Below, in pieces: positions 19,075 to 34,613 of a DNA stretch of 35,621 bases (positions are counted from its first letter, which is position 1; each line of letters begins with the position of its first letter). The notes beneath the pieces are model-generated. The model was not told the origin of the DNA. It saw nothing but the letters and a program-made list of their open reading frames with translations, and ran no database searches. The stretch spans positions 1-35,621 of IMG/VR virus record IMGVR_UViG_3300008107_000171. The stretch is one strand, 5' to 3'. A program made the position numbers and the translations under genes. This DNA is from a virus.

Positions 19075-19725
19075 ATGTCAGTAATCAAAGGATTAAAAAA
19101 CATCGAAGCAGTACTTGATAAGGCAAAAGTAGAAAACAGTGGTGCAAAAGTCAACTGGCTCAAACTAGATGACGGAGAAAGTGTACAAATTAGATTCGTA
19201 AGTGAACTAGATGCAGACTCACCAAACTATGATGAAAAGCGTGGAGTTGCAATCGTAATTAGCGAACACACAAACCCAGAAGATTATAAAAGAAAAGCAG
19301 CCTGCACAGCAGATAGTCAAGGCAGATGCTTTGGTTGTGAAATGTTTCGTAAAGAACCAAAGAGTGGATGGAGAGCACGTTTACGCTTCTATTGCAACGT
19401 ATTAGTTGACAATGGAACTGAACAGCCAAAGGTTGCTGTATGGAGCATGGGAGTAAGTAAGACTGCTACATTTAGCACAATTCGTGAATTTGCAGCAGAT
19501 TCCCAAAGTATCAGCAATATGATTTGGAAATTAAAACGTAACGGCAAAGGCACAGAAACAAACTATGTGCTACTTCCAGGCAAGCAAGATTCAGAACCAT
19601 TTAACTGGGGATCAAACGAAGCGTTTAACTTAGAAAAGGTTGTTCGTGACCTTCCTTATGCTGAACAAGAATCATTCTATCTAGGATTCAGCAATCCAAC
19701 CACAACTGCAGCAGCAGAGTGGTAA
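19075..19725 (+). CDS. gp32-like single-stranded DNA-binding protein
   Basis: A 216-residue protein resembling the core of T4 gp32-type ssDNA-binding proteins. An N-terminal segment LDKAKVENSGAKVNWLKLDD leads into strands (SVQIRFVSEL), then a likely zinc site H65, C77, C85, C88 (AACTADSQGRCFGCEMF), then OB-fold strands (RARLRFYCNVLV, KVAVWSMG). It coats ssDNA at the fork and during recombination. It has a strong promoter, AAGGAG as ribosome binding site, and CGT-rich arginine codons, all signs of high expression. It lacks the acidic C-terminal tail expected of gp32. A second, bacterial-type SSB is encoded at 33381. Confidence 0.75.
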   Translation: MSVIKGLKNIEAVLDKAKVENSGAKVNWLKLDDGESVQIRFVSELDADSPNYDEKRGVAIVISEHTNPEDYKRKAACTADSQGRCFGCEMFRKEPKSGWRARLRFYCNVLVDNGTEQPKVAVWSMGVSKTATFSTIREFAADSQSISNMIWKLKRNGKGTETNYVLLPGKQDSEPFNWGSNEAFNLEKVVRDLPYAEQESFYLGFSNPTTTAAAEW

Positions 19726-22700: not shown

Positions 22701-23028
22701 TGGATCAAATAGAATTATGGAAGCGATAATTATAGATGAAATTAAAAACTTTACTACAAATAGTTTGATTAAATTTTTAAACTATAAATCTTTACCATAT
22801 GGCGGAGAAGAGCATTATGTGCTATCATTTAAGCCAAGAGTAACTAAGGCTGGAAAGAAGATGGCAAGCATGGTTGTTGTAGATAGCAATAGAGATATGA
22901 AGCCAGTAATAGTTTTCCCTAGACAATTTTCTGAGGGATATATGAAGTGTGAGCCAGGATCTGCCGTTAAAATAACATTTGGCAAATCAGAAGATGGCTC
23001 TTTAATATTAAATGGGGTAACTAAATAA
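19753..23028 (+). CDS. dnaE: DNA polymerase III alpha subunit (DnaE-type replicase)
   Basis: A 1091-residue family C polymerase. The PHP domain starts at once with HVHTHYSLMDG (H7, H9, D16) and ITDHGAL, and keeps VEVMPH and TPDCHH, so its metal site looks intact and could proofread. The polymerase core has GPGRGSAAGSLVCY, catalytic aspartates D421 and D423 in FPDIDSD, and D568 in LIKLDVLGLKTL. RGTGIHAAGVV, helix-hairpin-helix and a C-terminal OB fold (ILMGVVKNIKRGKGWS) follow. I saw no QxxLF-type clamp-binding motif. The start is TTG at 19753 with AAAGG eight bases before; an ATG five bases earlier stops after two codons. The stop overlaps recA as TAATG. Confidence 0.95.
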   Translation: MNYVPLHVHTHYSLMDGVATPEEYCKRAKQNGMPAIAITDHGALSGHRPMYRAAKAEGIKPILGIEGYITHDRFDRRDKAERNGPLDLTYNHIVILAKNQQGLENLNRLNEIAWTEGFYKKPRIDFEVLEKYKDGLIVLSACMSGLIAKALEFKEYAEAKRLLTWFKNTFNDDFYVEVMPHNSKELNKELLEFADSLDIKSVVTPDCHHSTVDQKVVQEIMLLLNTHAKLQKDSSYDKSAKIDDIMKRLDYLYGADRSMSFRSFDIHLLSYEEMKQAMNMQGIQREDIYTNSLEIADKVEDYDIKSELDLLPTKVDDPQKTLEDLVTKGLIDRELNHLPEYVNRALEELEIIKQKNFAPYFLIVSNMLNWAKEQGILVGPGRGSAAGSLVCYTLGITDVDPIEYGLLFFRFVNPERNDFPDIDSDIADSRRDEVKTYLEKEYENVASIATFLEFKGKGIVRDVSRAFNVPLADVNKVLKNVDDWDDFTTSKTAQWFRLKYPEVVKYGEQMRGRIRGTGIHAAGVVTAKEPIFKYAPMETRVAPGTKDRIPVVAVDMDEAANIGLIKLDVLGLKTLTVIDETIRTIKERHKIDVVLKDIPLDDKSVYEMLSDGKTKGVFQCEATPYTNLLVKMGVSNLNELAASNALVRPGAMNTIGKSYLSRKHGKTMIEYIHPIMQEFTKDTYGCILYQEQVMQACVHLGGMSMSEADKVRKIIGKKKDAKEFDQFKDRFIIGAQKHITPFAAEGLWQDFEAHAGYSFNKSHAVAYSMLSYWTAWLKYYYPIEFMYCLLKNEQDKDARTEYLIEAKRMGISVKLPHVNESDSDFSIEGKGIRVGLSSIKWISDGVSSKIMAYRPYNSYAEFSALASKKGSGINIRAVQALNAVGALTFPDNPRKETVVKENLYEYLNLPEFTTSVPPHYYAYIDNIEDYDEQGAFILMGVVKNIKRGKGWSRVEIMDATGMVGAFDDEETKIEQGKTYIFLIGSNRIMEAIIIDEIKNFTTNSLIKFLNYKSLPYGGEEHYVLSFKPRVTKAGKKMASMVVVDSNRDMKPVIVFPRQFSEGYMKCEPGSAVKITFGKSEDGSLILNGVTK

Positions 23029-24035
23029 TGTCAATACAAATAGAAGAATTTTTATCACAACTAGATCCTAGTTTAAGAAAAAGATTAAGCAATGCAACAG
23101 ATGTAGAAGTACACAAACAAAAAACACCAAGCATTAGCCTTAACAATGCACTTAAAGGTGGGTTTGCATATGGAAGACAAGTAATGATTTGGGGCAATAA
23201 GTCTGCTGGCAAGTCATCATTTTGCCTACAGATGATTGGTGAAGCACAAAAGGAAGGCAAACTATGTGCTTGGATAGATGCAGAACAATCATTTGATCCT
23301 GAGTGGGCTAAAAAACTTGGGGTAGACACAGATAAATTAGTATACTCTGCTGCCAAGACTATTAATGACATGGTAGATGTTGCTACTCAATTAATGAAAG
23401 CAAAAATAGACATCATCATTGTAGACTCTATATCTGCCTTATTACCTGCTATTTATTTTGAAAAAGATTCTGATGAATTAAAGGCTTTAGAAAATACCAA
23501 GCAAATAGGTGCAGAAGCCAAGGATATGACTAACGCAGTAAAGATGCTTAACTATGCAAACAACCAAGATGGTCAAACACTGTTAGTATTGATATCACAA
23601 TTAAGAAATAATATTGGTGCTATGTATGCATCTCATATGCCAACAGGTGGCCTGGCAGTAAAGTTTTTCTCTAGCACTGTCGTTAAACTATGGTCAAGCG
23701 ATTCTGATAACAATGCTTTAAAATCTAAAATTGCAGTAGGAGACAAACTTATTGAGGGTAAGATAGGTAGAAAAGTAAATTGGCATATTGACTTTAATAA
23801 AACTGGTCCAGGATTCCTTGCTGGAGAATACGACTTCTATTTTGATGGAGATACCATTGGGGTAGACAAAGTGGCAGATCTTGTAGACACTGCAGAACTA
23901 CTAGGCACTATTGAAAAGGGTGGTGCTTGGTATACAGTTCTTGGTGAAAGATTACAAGGTAGAGCAAAAGTAATTGAATACCTAAAAGAAAATCCAGAGA
24001 AATTAAAAGAACTTGAATCAACAATCAACGCCTAA
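23028..24035 (+). CDS. recA: RecA-like recombinase
   Basis: A 335-residue strand-exchange ATPase. Walker A is GNKSAGKS (56–63), followed by CAWIDAEQSFDPEWAKKLGVD, the Walker B region DIIIVDSISAL and a RecA-like L2 region (LISQLRNNIGAMY then PTGGLAVKFFSS). The N-terminal extension (IEEFLSQLDPSLRKRLSNA) is unlike bacterial RecA, while the C-terminal domain ends in a helical ERLQGRAKVIEYLKENPEKL. It probably serves recombination-dependent replication and repair. It begins a run of seven genes devoted to recombination nucleases and zinc proteins. Confidence 0.9.
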   Translation: MSIQIEEFLSQLDPSLRKRLSNATDVEVHKQKTPSISLNNALKGGFAYGRQVMIWGNKSAGKSSFCLQMIGEAQKEGKLCAWIDAEQSFDPEWAKKLGVDTDKLVYSAAKTINDMVDVATQLMKAKIDIIIVDSISALLPAIYFEKDSDELKALENTKQIGAEAKDMTNAVKMLNYANNQDGQTLLVLISQLRNNIGAMYASHMPTGGLAVKFFSSTVVKLWSSDSDNNALKSKIAVGDKLIEGKIGRKVNWHIDFNKTGPGFLAGEYDFYFDGDTIGVDKVADLVDTAELLGTIEKGGAWYTVLGERLQGRAKVIEYLKENPEKLKELESTINA

Positions 24036-24183
24036 CTATACTGTATACCCTGGCAAATTTGTTTGTCATACGTGTAAAGAAATAGTTCCAAAAGCAAGAA
24101 TGTATGCAGAAAAAGGAGATCTTACTTGGATGTGTACTAAAAAACATATATCTAAAGTGACATTTCCACAGAAAGGATACTGA
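24013..24183 (+). CDS. Small zinc-finger protein, TTG start
   Basis: A 56-residue gene occupying the 148-nt gap between recA and the next gene and overlapping recA's end by 23 nt. TTG at 24013 is the only standard start after the in-frame stop at 24004. The protein has C18-x2-C21, then C41-x3-H45 in LTWMCTKKH, a treble-clef-like zinc site, with the pattern GKFVCHTCKE-IVPKARMY that I associate with small proteins of related phages. The stop overlaps the next start as TGATG. Function unknown; its place suggests a partner of RecA or of the adjoining nuclease. Confidence 0.75.
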   Translation: MNQQSTPNYTVYPGKFVCHTCKEIVPKARMYAEKGDLTWMCTKKHISKVTFPQKGY

Positions 24184-24473
24184 TGAGCGAACGTGGAGAA
24201 CTAAAGCGTATTGGTGCAAAACAACATCGTAATTCAGGTAGGGGACCAGTCAAGGCTGACGGATCATTGGATGACTTCGTAGTAGATGTCAAAGAATATT
24301 CTAAATCCTATTCCGTCAGTCAAGACTCTTGGGCTAAAATAGTGTCTGACACAATGAAGGTAGATAGAAAAAAGAACCCTGCTTTAATGGTAGTGCTTGG
24401 ATCTGAGCATAAAAAGGTAAGACTTGCTATAATTGAGTGGGAAGTATTTGAACAGTTAAGAGAAAAAGAGTAA
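24183..24473 (+). CDS. Hjc-like PD-(D/E)XK nuclease, putative Holliday junction resolvase
   Basis: A 96-residue basic protein. The segment RNSGRGPVKADGSLDDFVVD followed by VKEY places D26 and D35-x-K37 as the metal-binding core of a minimal PD-(D/E)XK fold, like archaeal Hjc and phage resolvase families. A later SVSQDSWAKIVSDTMK helix and strand PALMVVLG complete the expected order. It would cut branched DNA made by RecA and replication. A RuvC-like enzyme is encoded 1.4 kb downstream, so this may be a resolvase or a nicking nuclease with another job. Confidence 0.6.
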   Translation: MSERGELKRIGAKQHRNSGRGPVKADGSLDDFVVDVKEYSKSYSVSQDSWAKIVSDTMKVDRKKNPALMVVLGSEHKKVRLAIIEWEVFEQLREKE

Positions 24474-24784
24474 TGGAAAATACAGTAGAGTTATTAAATA
24501 AGTTAACATCTTTTAATGAGATGTCTGAATACATGCAAGATGAAGAGTTTACGAAGACTCTTACTATTGTTGCTAAACTGATTGCAAACCCAGATGTGCC
24601 TGCAGCAAAAGCAACACTATTAATAACTCAACTACAAGCACAATCAGCAAAGTTTGCTATGCTAGCAGCATGGTACTCTCATGTTAAAAAAGATGATAGA
24701 TCTAAAAAGAATATGTACTATGCAATAAGAGAAGCAACCGATAAACTAGTCGATGCCCTTAAATACAGCGTGAGGAATTTCTAA
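24473..24784 (+). CDS. Small helical protein in the recombination module
   Basis: A 103-residue all-helical protein, acidic at the N-terminus and basic at the C-terminus (VDALKYSVRNF), coupled to both neighbours through TAATG. It sits between two PD-(D/E)XK nucleases and could be an adaptor or inhibitor for one of them. I do not recognise a family. Confidence 0.55.
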   Translation: MENTVELLNKLTSFNEMSEYMQDEEFTKTLTIVAKLIANPDVPAAKATLLITQLQAQSAKFAMLAAWYSHVKKDDRSKKNMYYAIREATDKLVDALKYSVRNF

Positions 24785-25560
24785 TGGCTAAAACATTATT
24801 ACAAAAAATAATTAAAAAGGTAGACACAGGAACTGTAGATTTAAAAAAGATTACAGATGCAATCAACAATGGATATATGTTAAATGCTCTAGAAAAACCA
24901 TCTTTTCAAAAGAAAAGATCTTTTGCTCCATCTAAATTAGTATGGAACGAAGGAACTTGTCCTAGATATTGGTATTTAGCGTTTGAAGGAAATGAAACTG
25001 AAATTAAAAATGATGGTCCAGGAATAGCAAACATGCTATCTGGAATAGATGGCCACAAAAGAATTGGCTTAGCGTTAGAAAAAACTGGCATTGTAAAGTG
25101 GTTTGAAAATGAAGTAAGTTATAATGATCCACCAATCTTTGGTTACTGCGATGGACTTTTTAGTATAGACGAGCAAGATGTTTTAATAGAAATTAAAACT
25201 ACAAATGAAAGAGCATTTGAGTATAGAAAGCAAACCAACTCTGCAAGCGATAGTAATCGTATGCAGTTATTAATTTATATGAAAATTTTAAATTATTCCA
25301 TTGGTGCATTAGTTTATGAAAACAAAAATACTCATGAGATATTAACAATTCCAGTTGTTCCAACTCAAGAAGATGTTGATGAAGTAAATAAAATGTTTGA
25401 TTGGATGCGTAAAGTTAAAAAAGCATTTGACGATAAACAATTGCCAGAAAGAGTTTCTAGACAAGGAACTAAGATGTGTGCAGCATGTCCTGTGGAAAAG
25501 GTTTGCGACTCTAGAGAAAAGGGTGTAATCAAAATCGAAAAGAGGAAAGATTTTGAATGA
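24784..25560 (+). CDS. Cas4/RecB-like Fe–S exonuclease
   Basis: A 258-residue PD-(D/E)XK exonuclease. The catalytic residues are D123 (GYCDG), E136-x-K138 (IEIKTT) and Q161-x3-Y165 (QLLIY). Four cysteines, C59 near the N-terminus and C232, C235, C241 near the C-terminus, have the arrangement of the [4Fe–4S] cluster of Cas4 and AddB. It probably resects DNA ends to make ssDNA for RecA and the ssDNA-binding protein. No CRISPR array or other cas gene is in the window, so a role in adaptation is not suggested. The stop overlaps the next ATG as ATGA. Confidence 0.8.
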   Translation: MAKTLLQKIIKKVDTGTVDLKKITDAINNGYMLNALEKPSFQKKRSFAPSKLVWNEGTCPRYWYLAFEGNETEIKNDGPGIANMLSGIDGHKRIGLALEKTGIVKWFENEVSYNDPPIFGYCDGLFSIDEQDVLIEIKTTNERAFEYRKQTNSASDSNRMQLLIYMKILNYSIGALVYENKNTHEILTIPVVPTQEDVDEVNKMFDWMRKVKKAFDDKQLPERVSRQGTKMCAACPVEKVCDSREKGVIKIEKRKDFE

Positions 25561-25853
25561 CACTAAAACACTGTCAGTGGTGTGATAACTCTTTTGAAAC
25601 AAAAAGCAAAAACCAAATTTACTGCAGCCCTGAGTGCAGATCTTTAGCAACAAAAGAAAATATTGCTAGAAGATATAAACAAAACAAGGCAAAAGAAAGA
25701 ATTGGAAAAGATAGAAGATGTGCTGGTGATTGTGGACAAATTCTTAGCATATATAATGAAAATGCTTTTTGTGACAACTGCCTTGTTAACAACAAAAAGG
25801 TTGACAAAACCTTGAAAGAGATAAAGGAATTTTTTGATTATGAGCAAAACTAA
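25557..25853 (+). CDS. Double zinc-finger protein
   Basis: A 98-residue protein with two four-cysteine sites. The first is C6-x2-C9 and C23-x3-C27 (HCQWCDNSF then IYCSPEC), a pattern found in small HNH-like or DNA-binding zinc domains; the second is C55-x3-C59 and C72-x2-C75 (RRCAGDCGQ then FCDNC). A basic helix (NIARRYKQNKAKERIGK) lies between them and could bind DNA. No HNH catalytic His is evident. Located between Cas4-like and RuvC-like genes. Confidence 0.65.
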   Translation: MTLKHCQWCDNSFETKSKNQIYCSPECRSLATKENIARRYKQNKAKERIGKDRRCAGDCGQILSIYNENAFCDNCLVNNKKVDKTLKEIKEFFDYEQN

Positions 25854-26451
25854 ATTAAGGTACATAGGTAACCCTACGACAATTCTTGCTATTGATGCAT
25901 CAACTAACTCAATGGCCTTTTCTTTATTTTCAGAAAGAAAATTAATTAAATATGGAAAAGTTAATTTTCACGGAAACCACGTATACGAAAGAACTGGGGA
26001 TGCTACTAAAAAAATATCAGCATTTCTTAAAGACTATAAAATTGATGCAATTGTAATAGAGTCTGCAATATATACTAATTCTCAAAATACAGCAATCACA
26101 CTTTCTCTTGTTCAAGGAGCAATATTGGGGGCAAGTCAAATGTATAATAAAGCACCAATTGTTTCATGTTCACCAGTGTCATGGCAATCATGGATTGGAA
26201 ATGGAAGACTTAAAAAAGAAGAAAAGCAGGCAATCAAAGATCTATACGGAGAAGAAAAATCTTATTCATTTTACAAAACCAAAGAAAGAGAAATGAGAAA
26301 AGCAAGAACTATAAATAAAGTTAATATACAGTTTGATTTAAATGTTGATGATGATGATGTGGCTGACTCTATAGCGATAGGCTGGTATGCTTCAGAAAAT
26401 TGGCATAAACTTGTTGATCAACCACATAATCTTGACAAGGGCAAGGGGTAA
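25840..26451 (+). CDS. ruvC: RuvC-like Holliday junction resolvase
   Basis: A 203-residue RNase H-fold nuclease. D19 in ILAIDASTNS, E74 in AIVIESAIY and the DDDDVADS cluster (D170–D173, D176) make the expected catalytic quartet. The middle has APIVSCSPVSWQSWIGNGR. I chose the ATG at 25840, with AAAGGA upstream, over a TTG two codons earlier; it overlaps the zinc-finger gene by 14 nt. It probably resolves four-way junctions before packaging. The gene's last codons contain a strong promoter. Confidence 0.85.
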   Translation: MSKTKLRYIGNPTTILAIDASTNSMAFSLFSERKLIKYGKVNFHGNHVYERTGDATKKISAFLKDYKIDAIVIESAIYTNSQNTAITLSLVQGAILGASQMYNKAPIVSCSPVSWQSWIGNGRLKKEEKQAIKDLYGEEKSYSFYKTKEREMRKARTINKVNIQFDLNVDDDDVADSIAIGWYASENWHKLVDQPHNLDKGKG

Positions 26452-26460
26452 TGATAAAAT
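26432..26460 (+). promoter_or_regulatory. Sigma70-type promoter overlapping the HTH gene start
   Basis: TTGACA (26432–26437), a 17-nt spacer and TAAAAT (26455–26460) with TGa in front. It is close to consensus in every element. The -10 box runs into the ATG (26459) of the small HTH gene, so transcripts would begin near 26467, inside that gene, and serve the conserved unknown, the DUF1599-like gene and the terminases. Confidence 0.65.
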
Positions 26461-26611
26461 GAAGTTATACACAAATGAGGCATGGCTTAGAAAGAGAGTT
26501 TTAATTGATAAGAAAAGTCCAGAAGACATTGCAAAAGAATGTTCATGCAGTGTCGAAACCATTTATGTTTATATGGCAAAGTTTAAACTTAAAAAGTTAA
26601 AGAGAAAATAA
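26459..26611 (+). CDS. Small helix-turn-helix protein
   Basis: A 50-residue protein with a clear HTH pattern: SPEDIAKECSCSVETIYVYM covers the two helices and the turn, and a basic tail KLKKLKRK follows. AAGGGG ten bases upstream is a plausible ribosome binding site. Its ATG lies in the -10 box of a strong promoter, so it must be translated from upstream readthrough mRNA, and it could bind that promoter. Homeodomain-like small proteins of this type often act as repressors or as terminase-associated factors. The stop overlaps the next ATG as TAATG. Confidence 0.65.
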   Translation: MKLYTNEAWLRKRVLIDKKSPEDIAKECSCSVETIYVYMAKFKLKKLKRK

Positions 26612-27303
26612 TGTTTAAAAAAGACAAATCATTAATAGAAATTTGGACAGCAATAGAAGGACTTGCTGGAATTGAAGAATGCAAGCCTCAACCAGCATCT
26701 AAGTTTATTCCAGAGTGGTGGAAGAACGCTCCTTATGTAAATGATCCAGGGGTTTTAAGAACAGTCAAAGTTTGTCCATCTTTTCCAGATATGTTTTCTC
26801 AAGGATACATCATCCCAGCATGGTGCGATATGATTTTAAATGGTGGAGACAATCCAGGTTTCACACTTCCTTCAGAACAATTTAAATTAAGTTTTCATAC
26901 TCACAAACAATTTTTAGACTATGTTCCAAAGCATTATAGAGATACCGTAGACGTAATAATCAAAGCACATATGCCTTGGAGAATTAAAACTCCTAAAGGA
27001 TATTCTGTATATCAAATGCCATTATTTTTTCATTACAACGAAGACTATTCTATAGTGCCAGGAATAATTAATACAGATAGCCATCATATTGTTAATCCAC
27101 AAATTGTTTTGCATACAAAAAAACCAAAAGTAGTTATTAAAAGGGGAGACCCACTTGTATGGTATATTCCGTTTAAAAGAGAAAAATTTAATTTAGAGGT
27201 TAGAGAAGAAACAGAAGATGATAGATATATTGATGCTGTTCACCACATGAATATATTTTCAAAATTTACAGATGGGTATAAGAAAGGAATGGGAAATGGC
27301 TGA
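26611..27303 (+). CDS. Conserved phage protein, unknown function
   Basis: A 230-residue soluble protein with a distinctive pattern: ASKFIPEWWKNAPY, VKVCPSFPDMFSQGYIIPAWCD, and later IKAHMPWRIKTPKGYSVYQM. I believe this pattern is widespread in marine and freshwater phages (possibly the DUF6065 group), where the fold has been likened to small-molecule or cupin-like proteins, but I am not sure of either. The many His and Trp residues would be compatible with a metal or ligand site. It lies between an HTH gene and the packaging genes. It ends over the start of the next gene by 8 nt. Confidence 0.55.
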   Translation: MFKKDKSLIEIWTAIEGLAGIEECKPQPASKFIPEWWKNAPYVNDPGVLRTVKVCPSFPDMFSQGYIIPAWCDMILNGGDNPGFTLPSEQFKLSFHTHKQFLDYVPKHYRDTVDVIIKAHMPWRIKTPKGYSVYQMPLFFHYNEDYSIVPGIINTDSHHIVNPQIVLHTKKPKVVIKRGDPLVWYIPFKREKFNLEVREETEDDRYIDAVHHMNIFSKFTDGYKKGMGNG

Positions 27304-27631
27304 GTATCCTAGGGTAGATCTCGATAAGATCCTTGAAGATAGAATGAAGTTTATTCGTGATATATCTACTCAAGCACCTGCGGGTAGAAAGATTCTAGAT
27401 GAATGCCTGGATATAGCAGAACTACTGATTAAAAAGAATCAATCTTATGGTAGTTCATATAGTCATCCAATCAACATATTTAGTAAATCTACCCCAAAAG
27501 AACAAATATTTATTCGTATTGATGATAAACTTAATAGAATACATAAAGGTAAAGAGTATGCTTCTGAAGACACCATACTTGACCTTATTGGATACCTTGT
27601 ATTATTAAGGACATTAGATGAGCGACAATGA
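27296..27631 (+). CDS. DUF1599-like (nucleotide-modification-associated) protein
   Basis: A 111-residue helical protein. The segment KKNQSYGSSYSHPINIFSK, then RIDDKLNRIHKGKEYASED and LDLIGYLVLL, resembles the DUF1599 family, which is found near phage nucleotide-metabolism and DNA-modification genes. The catalytic function of that family is not established. I use the ATG at 27296, with AAGGAA at the right distance, over an ATG eight codons upstream. If the family match holds, it hints at modified nucleotides or a MazG-like pyrophosphatase fold. No modifying enzyme was found in the window. Confidence 0.5.
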   Translation: MAEYPRVDLDKILEDRMKFIRDISTQAPAGRKILDECLDIAELLIKKNQSYGSSYSHPINIFSKSTPKEQIFIRIDDKLNRIHKGKEYASEDTILDLIGYLVLLRTLDERQ

Positions 27632-28139
27632 TTTAGTAAAACACCTTGACCTAGTCAACAGTGTTGCCACAGAATATCTTAAAGGCCTAGATGCTTCAGA
27701 GATATCTAGACAATTAGATATCCCAAGACCAAAGGTGATGACTCTTTTAAATGACTGGAGAGCAATGGCTTCTAATAATCAAGCCATACATGCTCGTGCA
27801 AAGGAAGCCCTTGCTGGAGCAGATCAACACTATTCTTCTTTAATTAAGAAAGCATATGAAGTTATTGATGTTGCAGATATAAATACAAATCTTGGTGCAA
27901 AAACACAGGCTATCAAACTGATAGCAGATATTGAAAGCAAAAGACTTGAGATGTTACAGAAAGCAGGATTGTTAGACAATAAAGAAATAGCAGAACAAAT
28001 TATTGAAATGGAAAGAAAGCAAGATGTTTTAATGAAAATATTAAAAGAGGTTGCTTCTAAACATCCAGAAGTTCGTGAAGAAATTATGCGTAGACTTTCT
28101 GAAATTCAAACCGAGGTGGTTGTAATTGACAACGATTGA
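27618..28139 (+). CDS. terS: Terminase small subunit
   Basis: A 173-residue protein: an N-terminal HTH (EYLKGLDASEISRQLDIPRP) that would recognise the packaging site, then long helices for oligomerisation (KKAYEVIDVADINTNLG, QAIKLIADIESKRLEMLQK) and a C-terminal tail. It directly precedes and overlaps the large terminase by 14 nt. The family is variable, so the call rests on the HTH plus helices plus neighbour. It would form the ring that loads the motor onto concatemers. Confidence 0.75.
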   Translation: MSDNDLVKHLDLVNSVATEYLKGLDASEISRQLDIPRPKVMTLLNDWRAMASNNQAIHARAKEALAGADQHYSSLIKKAYEVIDVADINTNLGAKTQAIKLIADIESKRLEMLQKAGLLDNKEIAEQIIEMERKQDVLMKILKEVASKHPEVREEIMRRLSEIQTEVVVIDND

Positions 28140-29919
28140 TTTTAGTGATTTTATTGAAGCACTAGATGAAAGCCCTTTTGAAGAAATGCCAGTCGATGTT
28201 AAAACTTTTGTAACTGGAAAAGATTATTTAAATCAACCAGAGTTATCTGAATATCAATATACACTTGTAGAATGCATGAGTCAGATTTATAAAAAAGAAG
28301 ATGTTGAAAGGTGGTTAGGAAAAGAAGATGGAAATGAACATTACAAAAAGTATACCAAGTCTGAAGTTATTCTTATGTGTGGAAAGGGTAGTGGTAAAGA
28401 CCACACTTCTACCATTGGCTGTGCTTATATTGTCTATAAACTTCTTTGCCTCAAAGATCCATCAAGGTATTTTGGGAAACCATCGAACGATGCGATAGAT
28501 CTTATTAACGTTGCAGTAAACGCACAGCAAGCAAAGAACGTATTCTTTAAAGGTTTTAAATCTAAAATAGAAGGCTCCCCATGGTTTGCTGGTAAATATT
28601 CTGATCCAAAAGTTGATAGTATTGAATTTAGTAAAGCAATCACTGTGTACTCAGGACATTCAGAACGTGAGTCAGCAGAAGGCTTAAACCTGATGCTGGC
28701 AGTTCTTGATGAAATATCTGGATTTGCTATGGAAACTGCTGGAGGAAACGATCAAGGAAAAACAGCAGATAATTTATACAAAGCATTTAGAGGATCTGTA
28801 GATTCTCGTTTTCCAGATTTTGGCAAAGTAATTCTTCTTTCTTTTCCAAGGTACAAAGGAGACTTTATATCACAAAGATATGAAGATGTGGTAGCAGAAA
28901 AAGAAACAGGAATTAGAAGTCATGAGTTTATTATAAATCCAGCATTATCTGAAGAAGATCCAACTAATAAGTTTGTTATTGAATGGGAAGAAGACAATAT
29001 AATTAGTTATAAATACCCTGGAGTATTTGCATTACGTAGACCAACTTGGGAAATGAACCCAACCAGAACTATTGAAGATTTTAAAATTGCATTTTTTACA
29101 GATCAATCAGATGCTCTTATGCGTTTTGCTTGTATGCCAACAGTGTCATCAGATGCATTTTTTAAAGATAGGTCAAAAGTTGAAAAGGCACTATCAAGAC
29201 ACAACCCAATTGATAACAGTAGAAGATTTGACTTAAACTTCAAACCCAAAGAAGACGTAGAATATTTTGTTCATGCTGACTTGGCACAAAAACATGACAA
29301 GTGTGCAGTATCAATTGCACATGTTGAAAAATGGGTAAGTGTTCAGTCCTTTAATAATTATGAGCAAGTAATGCCGTTAGTGGTTGTAGACACTATTGCT
29401 TGGTGGGAACCAAAGCGTGAGGGTCCAGTAGATTTAAGCGAAGTTAAAAATTGGATTATAGATTTAAGAAGATCTGGATTTAACTTAGGCTTAGTTACTT
29501 TTGATAGATGGCAATCTTTTGATATACAAAACGAATTAAAACAAGTAGGAATTAAAACAGAAACCTTGTCAGTTGCTAAAAAACACTATGAAGATTTGGC
29601 TATGTTAATTTATGAAGAAAGGGTTGAGGCACCTCATATAGACATCCTTCTTGAAGAACTTTTAGAATTAAGAATAATGAACAATAATAGAGTTGATCAT
29701 CCTAGAAAAAAGTCTAAAGACTTGGCTGACGCAATGTGTGGATCAGTTTATAACGCAATTAGCAGATCACAAAAAGATAGAGTAAAAGAAGTAGACATAC
29801 ACACTTGGTCTAGGGGTGGGGTAGACTCAGACTCCGTAGAAGACGATGATTTTGGTTTTGAAAAAGAAAAGATTAGAGGAAAGATCGGTGGATGGGACGG
29901 AGGCTTCAGATTAATATGA
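28126..29919 (+). CDS. terL: Terminase large subunit
   Basis: The 597-residue packaging motor and nuclease. The ATPase has GKGSGKD at 86–92 as Walker A, with Asp where Ser/Thr is usual; I believe this variant is typical of one terminase branch. Walker B is LMLAVLDEIS with D195/E196. The RNase H-like nuclease has D385 (HADLAQKHDK), D460 (TFDRWQ) and D535 (DLADAM). The start is a TTG with GAGGTGG six bases before; the codon above it in this frame is a stop, so nothing upstream is possible. It pumps DNA into the prohead through the portal, which is not in this window. Confidence 0.93.
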   Translation: MTTIDFSDFIEALDESPFEEMPVDVKTFVTGKDYLNQPELSEYQYTLVECMSQIYKKEDVERWLGKEDGNEHYKKYTKSEVILMCGKGSGKDHTSTIGCAYIVYKLLCLKDPSRYFGKPSNDAIDLINVAVNAQQAKNVFFKGFKSKIEGSPWFAGKYSDPKVDSIEFSKAITVYSGHSERESAEGLNLMLAVLDEISGFAMETAGGNDQGKTADNLYKAFRGSVDSRFPDFGKVILLSFPRYKGDFISQRYEDVVAEKETGIRSHEFIINPALSEEDPTNKFVIEWEEDNIISYKYPGVFALRRPTWEMNPTRTIEDFKIAFFTDQSDALMRFACMPTVSSDAFFKDRSKVEKALSRHNPIDNSRRFDLNFKPKEDVEYFVHADLAQKHDKCAVSIAHVEKWVSVQSFNNYEQVMPLVVVDTIAWWEPKREGPVDLSEVKNWIIDLRRSGFNLGLVTFDRWQSFDIQNELKQVGIKTETLSVAKKHYEDLAMLIYEERVEAPHIDILLEELLELRIMNNNRVDHPRKKSKDLADAMCGSVYNAISRSQKDRVKEVDIHTWSRGGVDSDSVEDDDFGFEKEKIRGKIGGWDGGFRLI

Positions 29920-33112: not shown

Positions 33113-33381
33113 TGTATACAGAGCAAATGCAAAAAGCATTTAAATCTATTCCTGTGCCAAAAGATTTCAGAGCAGCAATAGTTGATTATGATAACTTTAT
33201 TACAATAAGATTTTATGAAAGTCAGTGGAGACATTATTCAGAAGCAGAAAGATTTAAGTGTGTTCAATACATGATGAATGTAAAGAAGGCACTTGAAAGT
33301 CTAGGAGCGGTTGTGGCAATTGACCCAGTACTAGACTTAGAAACACCAGAAGATAGAGCACAGAGAAGAAGGAGAAAATAA
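33109..33381 (+). CDS. Small unknown protein between WhiB and SSB
   Basis: A 90-residue protein overlapping the whiB stop (ATGA) and the ssb start (TAATG). It has strands around IVDYDNFITIRFYE, then a helix (RFKCVQYMMNVKKALESLG) and a basic C-terminal tail (RAQRRRRK). I do not recognise it. Coupling to WhiB and SSB suggests expression at the same time as these. Confidence 0.55.
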   Translation: MMYTEQMQKAFKSIPVPKDFRAAIVDYDNFITIRFYESQWRHYSEAERFKCVQYMMNVKKALESLGAVVAIDPVLDLETPEDRAQRRRRK

Positions 33382-33770
33382 TGCCACAAGTAATAACAGC
33401 AGTTGGAAATCTAGTTAAGGATCCAGAAGTAAAAACTTTTGAAAAGGGTGCCTTAACAAAACTACGTATCGCATGCACAGACAGAATGTCTGATGGCAAT
33501 GGTGGGTGGAAAGACGGAGACACTAATTTTTATGATGTCGCTGTTTGGAAAACACTTGGAGAATATGCTGCATCAACCTTAAAAAAGGGTGACAAGGTTA
33601 TTGTTCAAGGTAAACTAAAATATCGTGAATTTAAGAAAAACGATGGATCAAATGGTCATGCATATGAAATTGATGCAACTGATCTAGGCGTTTATTTAAC
33701 AAAGAAAACTGCCAATCCAACAGGGGCAACAGTATCTGTTCCAGCAGGTGCAGCAACCGTCTGGGGATAA
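33381..33770 (+). CDS. ssb: Bacterial-type single-stranded DNA-binding protein
   Basis: A 129-residue OB-fold SSB: VGNLVKDPEVKTFEKG, LRIACTDRM, NFYDVAVWKTLGEYAA, then KGDKVIVQGKLKYREF, the classic SSB order. The C-terminus is short and ends ATVWG, without the acidic DDIPF tip that recruits host partners. GAAGGAG precedes the start. Since a gp32-like protein is also encoded (19075), the two may act at different stages or on different pathways. Confidence 0.85.
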   Translation: MPQVITAVGNLVKDPEVKTFEKGALTKLRIACTDRMSDGNGGWKDGDTNFYDVAVWKTLGEYAASTLKKGDKVIVQGKLKYREFKKNDGSNGHAYEIDATDLGVYLTKKTANPTGATVSVPAGAATVWG

Positions 33771-33837: not shown

Positions 33838-34224
33838 ATGGGAATGTATATACAATGGAAAGACGATAAGAATAAGCAATCTTTTAAACCAAAGGTTTGG
33901 ACACCTATGTTATTTGAAAAGAAAGATGCTATAGTTCCAACAGAAGAAGGTAAGTGTTTTTGGGAAGCACAATTACATTTGACCCTGCCTAAAACTGGTA
34001 GACCAACATATGTAAAGATGAATTTCTCAAGAGACTACAAAGGAAAGAATGATACTACTGGAACAAACACTTACGCCGTTCCAACAGGCGTAGAGTCTGT
34101 GCAGTTCACACTCTCATGGTTCTTTAATGCAAATCCAAGCACACCTATTTCGTGTATGGTTTATCATAATGGATCATCAGACATTGTTTCCGAAATAAGA
34201 CAATTCAAAGGAATGATATTATAA
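33838..34224 (+). CDS. Beta-rich protein coupled to the endolysin, unknown
   Basis: A 128-residue Trp- and Thr-rich protein without signal peptide, in beta-strand-like segments (CFWEAQLHLTLPKT, TYVKMNFSRDYKG, SVQFTLSWFFN, ISCMVYHNGS). It has AGGAG upstream and overlaps the endolysin start by 1 nt (TAATG). The look of a small beta-sandwich suits a tail component or a carbohydrate-binding partner. I do not recognise the family. Coupling with the single-domain M23 enzyme is the best clue. Confidence 0.55.
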   Translation: MGMYIQWKDDKNKQSFKPKVWTPMLFEKKDAIVPTEEGKCFWEAQLHLTLPKTGRPTYVKMNFSRDYKGKNDTTGTNTYAVPTGVESVQFTLSWFFNANPSTPISCMVYHNGSSDIVSEIRQFKGMIL

Positions 34225-34613
34225 TGGCATCACCAATTAAAGATGGAAAAATTACAACACCTTATAAAAAACTAGGCAAGATGTGGTCAAAAGGTTATCA
34301 TACTGGTGTCGACTATGCGTGCAAAGTTGGAACAGAGATTATCGCAGTTGCAGATGGAAAAATTGAACCAGCAAACTGGGGAAAATCTTATGGCATTCAG
34401 GCAGTGCAAAAAGTTGAAGGTGGATGGGTAATCTATGCACATCTATCAAAACTAAATGTAAAACCTGGTGATAAGGTTGTTAAAGGACAAGCAATTGGAC
34501 TAAGTGGAAATACAGGAAACTCTTCTGGACCACACTTACATTTTGAAATGCGTGACAACATTCGTTGGTCAGCAGGAAAAGATATAGATCCAACAGCAAT
34601 TCTTAACTCATAA
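34224..34613 (+). CDS. M23-family peptidoglycan endopeptidase (endolysin)
   Basis: A 129-residue LytM-type zinc peptidase consisting of the catalytic domain alone. The zinc ligands are H26-x3-D30 (YHTGVD) and H106 in GPHLHFE, with catalytic H73 (YAHLS) and H104. It would cut peptide cross-bridges of the host wall at the end of infection. No signal peptide and no wall-binding domain are seen, so it should need a holin for release. It could instead be a virion-associated lysin, but it lies outside the tail cluster. Confidence 0.9.
   Translation: MASPIKDGKITTPYKKLGKMWSKGYHTGVDYACKVGTEIIAVADGKIEPANWGKSYGIQAVQKVEGGWVIYAHLSKLNVKPGDKVVKGQAIGLSGNTGNSSGPHLHFEMRDNIRWSAGKDIDPTAILNS

Follow-up and report, generated by a model that had tools for sequence, protein, structure and literature searches.

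The DNA considered here is the virus record IMGVR_UViG_3300008107_000171 of IMG/VR, analysed at its full length of 35,621 nucleotides and referred to below as the window. It is a 35.6 kb record from a tailed phage with approximately 35% G+C, and its segment 23028–26451 carries genes for a RecA-like recombinase, a Cas4-like exonuclease, two nucleases of unlike resolvase families and three small proteins. Many phages seem to manage with one branch-cutting enzyme, and the question raised by this locus is why a phage should carry two, which are unrelated, apparently intact and, it would seem, always carried together; this pairing is its mildly unusual feature. Taken as a whole, the best explanation is probably that the segment is a recombination cluster of standard kind within the replication operon, in a large tailed phage whose relatives are the Stanwilliamsviridae and the Rhodococcus CB and CE phages.

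Two resolvases in one gene block

The block consists of recA, zn1, hjc, the gene of a helical protein, cas4, zn2 and ruvC. The features are listed here with their best profile matches.

23028–24035, plus strand: RecA/UvsX-like recombinase, 335 amino acids (Pfam RecA 6.4e-41 and RecA_C 6.6e-13; phrog_97, UvsX-like, 9.7e-61)
24013–24183, plus strand: putative zinc protein 1 (zn1), 56 amino acids, overlapping the end of recA (C18xxC21...C41xxxH45, read from the sequence; phrog_10952 9.7e-7)
24183–24473, plus strand: Hjc-like PD-(D/E)XK Holliday junction resolvase, 96 amino acids (phrog_2002, Holliday junction resolvase, 1e-18)
24473–24784, plus strand: helical protein, 103 amino acids (phrog_9818, a function-unknown family, 5.2e-30)
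24784–25560, plus strand: Cas4/AddB-type exonuclease, 258 amino acids (phrog_1706 8.4e-35; phrog_1990, Cas4-domain exonuclease, 4e-11; PADLOC Cas4 4e-10)
25557–25853, plus strand: putative zinc protein 2 (zn2), 98 amino acids, with two four-cysteine sites, C6/C9/C23/C27 and C55/C59/C72/C75 (phrog_10853 2.7e-12)
25840–26451, plus strand: RuvC-like resolvase of the phage bIL67 type, 203 amino acids (phrog_159 4e-19; D19/E74/D173/D176)

These are the seven proteins named in the initial annotation, and all were found where it had placed them. The genes are all on the plus strand and lie upstream of the terminase. From recA through ruvC, neighbouring reading frames overlap by 1–23 nt, which fits a co-translated operon. 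The TTG start of zn1 is assumed, the program's list of open reading frames having none of at least 60 amino acids at this position.

In the Hjc-like protein, the active-site residues E6, D26 and D35xK37 are present in all 147 distinct sequences compared. The AlphaFold2 model (predicted local distance difference test, pLDDT, 87) has a PD-(D/E)XK core, and the top eight rows of a VIA-align comparison are all archaeal Hjc or Hje, with Z of 8.1–7.1 (best 1gef, Z 8.1, root-mean-square deviation 2.2 over 76). These rows rank above other PD-(D/E)XK families, at Z values close to the zone of common arrangements. The Foldseek match is weak (best E 0.02), and the assignment of the fold therefore rests on the top Hjc/Hje rows together with the active-site motif. 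Searches of the PDB at the level of sequence gave no match, and phrog_2002 is a family based on annotation. On the strength of the model, the protein is predicted to have the archaeal-type Hjc/Hje fold. It shares this fold and an E...D...(D/E)xK active site with archaeal Hjc/Hje and with the Hjc of phage Tth15-6 (PMC8805305), but differs from them in being only 96 amino acids long and in that D35 replaces E in the (E/D)xK motif, which it does in 147/147 sequences.

The RuvC-like protein has D19, E74 and D176 in 171 of 171 distinct sequences, and D173 in 165. The other six have N, and in those inspected there is a D one residue earlier, the same pattern as in the sequence of bIL67 RuvC. The best profile match in the PDB is bIL67 RuvC (4ktw, 6e-7), bacterial RuvC scoring 0.02 or worse, while the Pfam scan gives a tie between DUF3882 (0.0011) and RuvC (0.001), both below the Pfam cut-off. 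The window protein is assigned to the bIL67 type (the DUF3882 subset) and not to the bacterial type, with 4ktw as its closest solved structure by profile. It retains the catalytic acids, but is longer than bIL67 RuvC (203 against 161 amino acids), the extra length lying mainly before the last helix.

The initial annotation had proposed two unlike resolvases, and this holds: one is Hjc-like, with a predicted archaeal fold, and the other RuvC-like. It had also named an incomplete active site in one of them as a point that would count against its reading. This is ruled out, since both sites are complete and essentially invariant over the 147 and 171 distinct sequences.

The RuvC-like protein also keeps the residues that govern selectivity in bIL67 RuvC. 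That enzyme cleaves X junctions and forks to nearly the same extent, and the mutations R121A and R124A give it higher junction selectivity; neither arginine has a structural counterpart in the RuvC proteins of E. coli and Thermus (PMC3864405). R150, R153 and K154 of the window protein align with R121, R124 and K125 of bIL67 RuvC (HMMER alignment and PMC3864405), and are present in 171/171 sequences. All 171 have I or V three residues after E74, where an ungapped alignment places F69 of E. coli RuvC, and bIL67 RuvC also lacks an equivalent of F69. In RuvCs of the window type, the wedge formed by F69 in the E. coli enzyme is therefore not at its usual place.

It was suggested in the initial annotation that one of the nucleases might have another task, such as origin nicking, host-DNA breakdown or debranching. 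The last of these is plausible for the RuvC-like protein, which is of the bIL67 type and has the arginines associated with the cutting of a wide range of branches. Nothing found here supports the first two. On a rival reading, one nuclease has left junction resolution for a job such as these. In its favour, overproduced bIL67 RuvC introduces nicks at replication forks and breaks chromosomes into fragments (PMC3864405). However, both nucleases have full resolvase active sites, archaeal resolvases outrank other PD-(D/E)XK families among the matches of the Hjc model, and Pfam and PHROG scans of the two proteins showed no additional domain for targeting. A change of job of this kind is highly improbable.

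The Cas4-like protein has four cysteines, one N-terminal (C59) and three C-terminal (C232, C235 and C241) to the nuclease core, and the nuclease motif H91-D123-E136xK138-Q161xxxY165; both are found in 159/159 sequences. Its PDB profile matches are 4ic1/Sso0001 (1.6e-4) and the Cas4 4r5q (1.4e-3). The arrangement of cysteines and the RecB-type nuclease motif are like those of Cas4, AddB and SIRV2 gp19, and four cysteines alone fit either an Fe–S or a Zn cluster (PMC3466216). The protein is therefore best described as a putative exonuclease of the Cas4/AddB type, the metal of its cluster being Fe–S or Zn. Unlike CRISPR Cas4, it has no CRISPR genes nearby in the phage block. A role in CRISPR or defence was considered and rejected: PADLOC matches only Cas4 and a few nuclease models (Cas1g, DruK), and the other genes of the block match none.

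The small proteins are also well conserved. C18, C21 and C41 of zn1 are kept in 135/135 relatives and H45 in 126 of them, and all eight cysteines of zn2 in 157/157 sequences. The N-terminus of zn2 has a weak NinG-like zinc motif (phrog_171 0.0027), and a PDB profile search with this protein gave weak zinc-finger matches only, which were uninformative. The helical protein is modelled by AlphaFold2 (pLDDT 82) as four helices, 4–21, 24–38, 44–70 and 76–102. A fold search matched common four-helix bundles only, and gave nothing informative on function.

Conservation of the block and the pattern of insertions

Searches of GenBank using tblastn with the Hjc-like, helical, Cas4-like and RuvC-like proteins each found 127 Streptomyces and 7–9 Rhodococcus phage records. 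The Streptomyces records examined are Stanwilliamsviridae. In these relatives the genes are mostly already named as Holliday junction resolvase, Cas4 exonuclease and RuvC-like resolvase. The gene set, in unchanged order, is present in 127 Streptomyces and 9 Rhodococcus phage records of GenBank. With annotations for it in over 130 isolates, the block is not a new system. Viral-contig loci were collected from three separate seeds, Cas4, RuvC and Hjc, and gave 176 non-redundant loci, a sample biased towards the window's own lineage because the seeds resemble the window.

The order recA-zn1-hjc-helical-cas4-zn2-ruvC, followed by a small helix-turn-helix (HTH) gene, is kept across the 176 loci within the limits of each contig. 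The recurrence of the block in this order excludes chance, and the kept order together with the kept cysteines rules out the small genes being chance or mis-called reading frames. There are two kinds of exception: four Rhodococcus phages without both Zn genes, and one Gordonia phage in which the core is spread out.

The Stanwilliamsviridae block (Samisti12 gp181–gp172, Enygma 85–95, Annadreamy 62–74) has the same gene order as the window from recA to the terminase, with small genes at the places of zn1 and zn2, a helical hypothetical protein, and a small DNA-binding gene after the RuvC-like gene. Protein identities to the window are approximately 33–49%. What sets the Streptomyces members apart from the window is additional inserted DNA in two places, one between hjc and the helical gene, the other following ruvC. 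The comparison covered the gene block.

The Rhodococcus phages Weasels2 (CB), Trina and NiceHouse (both CE) and Dorin, from at least two genera, keep the order recA-hjc-helical-cas4-ruvC-HTH, but unlike the window they lack both zn1 and zn2. This rules out the Zn genes as obligatory partners of the nucleases. The part of the initial annotation that concerned gene order therefore holds for the nucleases and not for the Zn genes, and its proposal that the small proteins are cofactors of a new end-processing complex is weakened, both by these four phages and by the existing annotation of the gene set. Since the nucleases are kept where both Zn genes are missing, zn1 and zn2 are more aptly described, from gene content, as putative accessories than as obligatory cofactors.

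The protein distances of the six block genes tested correlate with each other and with those of the large terminase subunit (TerL), at 0.75–0.90, which indicates that the block is inherited vertically. Both resolvase genes are retained in every locus reaching across the whole block, whether from Streptomyces phages, Rhodococcus phages or viral contigs, and the active sites are undecayed even though protein distances reach 0.69–0.78.

These results bear on the simplest explanation of the two resolvases, which is plain redundancy: both would cut any branched DNA, with no distinct substrates, and loss of either would slightly lower the yield. Viral resolvases are in general promiscuous (PMC3864405), and vertical inheritance of both genes along with TerL is also compatible with it. 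However, redundancy would predict losses, and there are none in the loci spanning the block; the active sites are without decay at these distances; and in jumbo phages one resolvase family tends to take the place of another (PMC7824862). Plain redundancy is thus an unlikely explanation. A search of the open-licence literature by phrase found no papers on phages with two resolvases, and the genome papers on BE1 and on the Rhodococcus phages (PMC5764925, PMC13313380) contain nothing on the recombination module.

A new finding of this analysis is the pattern of insertions. An insertion was defined as more than 150 nt extra between block genes, and insertions were counted as unrelated families per gap. 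Nine families lie after ruvC, seven in the gap hjc|helical, and one each in the gaps recA|zn1, zn1|hjc and helical|cas4. No insertion occurs between cas4 and zn2 (0 in 164 loci) or between zn2 and ruvC (0 in 169 loci). With insert families counted as events, the spread over the seven gaps is uneven (chi-square p ~4e-5). The pattern suggests two units, recA-zn1-hjc and helical-cas4-zn2-ruvC.

It could be argued from this that there is a physical complex of Cas4, RuvC and zn2, joined by the helical protein, for end processing or for debranching linked to packaging, apart from RecA and Hjc. The second unit is hardly ever interrupted and its borders are the insertion hot spots, which speaks for such a complex. 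On the other hand, cas4-ruvC persists in the Rhodococcus phages without zn2, and in the Gordonia phage Chidiebere the genes for RecA, Hjc, Cas4 and RuvC have the same order but are spread over 11 genes, with small genes interspersed. Overlap of the frames alone could also block insertions. We consider a physical complex very doubtful.

The hot spot between hjc and the helical gene (L034:2646-3314, L198:5294-5893, L123 and other loci) holds seven unrelated cargo families, one of which, present in five loci, is an RNase H/RNase T-type exonuclease (Pfam 1e-11).

The surrounding operon

Nearly all window genes are on the plus strand, the tail genes coming first and the replication genes after them. 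The order is DnaB helicase, primase, single-stranded DNA-binding protein (SSB), DNA polymerase III alpha subunit (Pol III alpha), RecA to RuvC, and terminase.

Start 16583: DnaB helicase
Start 18078: primase
19075–19725: SSB (phrog_9721)
Start 19753: Pol III alpha, a single gene in the window
26459–26611, plus strand: small HTH DNA-binding protein, 50 amino acids (phrog_9759 2.8e-7)
27618–28139, plus strand: terminase small-subunit-like gene, assigned by synteny (phrog_9507, a function-unknown family, 6.7e-49; the Enygma counterpart is annotated as terminase small subunit)
28126–29919, plus strand: terminase large subunit (phrog_17415 1.5e-13)

The HTH gene follows ruvC in nearly all loci compared. 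In Weasels2 and Trina (L124, L129), Pol III alpha is divided between two neighbouring genes. After the HTH gene, the window has a gene for a protein of 230 amino acids (26611–27303; phrog_7084, a function-unknown family), which few relatives have. A homologue with weak similarity to DUF6065 lies between zn1 and hjc at L017:676-1371. In L038, L042 and L044, homologues are located upstream of the polymerase gene; the gene seems to move around the operon. There is a second SSB after the terminase genes (33381–33770), which is of the bacterial type (Pfam SSB 7e-24) and unlike the phrog_9721 protein of the replication operon. Finally, 34224–34613 encodes a stand-alone metallo-endopeptidase-like protein of 129 amino acids (phrog_7767 3e-29), which also matches endolysin and tape-measure peptidase families.

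Probable duties of the two resolvases

The mechanism that we favour, and regard as likely, gives each nuclease a place in one pathway. The Cas4-like exonuclease would resect DNA ends to give single strands, which the RecA-like recombinase would use for strand invasion. The resulting joint molecules, together with forks and concatemers that carry branches, would be the substrates of the two structure-selective endonucleases. The gene of the Hjc-like enzyme keeps company with recA, and its product would most likely resolve the recombination junctions made by RecA. The gene of the RuvC-like enzyme goes with cas4 and is the one closest to the terminase genes; its product would most likely carry out broad debranching of forks and junctions before packaging, by analogy with the role proposed for bIL67 RuvC and for the resolving enzymes of T4 and T7.

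Several points weigh against this assignment of duties. Gene adjacency does not prove a division of labour, and the overlapping frames could by themselves shield cas4-zn2-ruvC from insertions. In addition, unlike bIL67 RuvC, most of the RuvC-like proteins (155/171) have an aromatic residue four positions after E74, which in the window is Y78. Judged from the alignment, such a residue could partly replace F69, and so make the enzyme more junction-selective than bIL67 RuvC. For Y78 to act as an F69-like wedge a one-residue gap is needed, the ungapped alignment with the E. coli and bIL67 proteins having I/V at the position of F69 and Y/F one later. In the Streptomyces and Rhodococcus relatives examined the residue is M, L or K.

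Related phages have long direct terminal repeats, of approximately 11 kb in BE1 (PMC5764925) and 3 kb in CB (PMC13313380), which fit a concatemer-based life cycle. A bolder version of the favoured mechanism is that Hjc serves RecA, that RuvC, physically joined in one unit to the Cas4-like protein and the eight-cysteine Zn protein, debranches and trims concatemers before genomes with long terminal repeats are packaged, and that a whole lineage of large actinophages depends on both resolvases. We regard this version as quite unlikely.

Two unlike resolvases are strictly retained together in this lineage through deep divergence, unlike the replacement of one family by another in jumbo phages (PMC7824862), and the question is why both are needed. 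The Streptomyces and Rhodococcus isolates make single and double deletions of the two genes feasible in laboratory strains.

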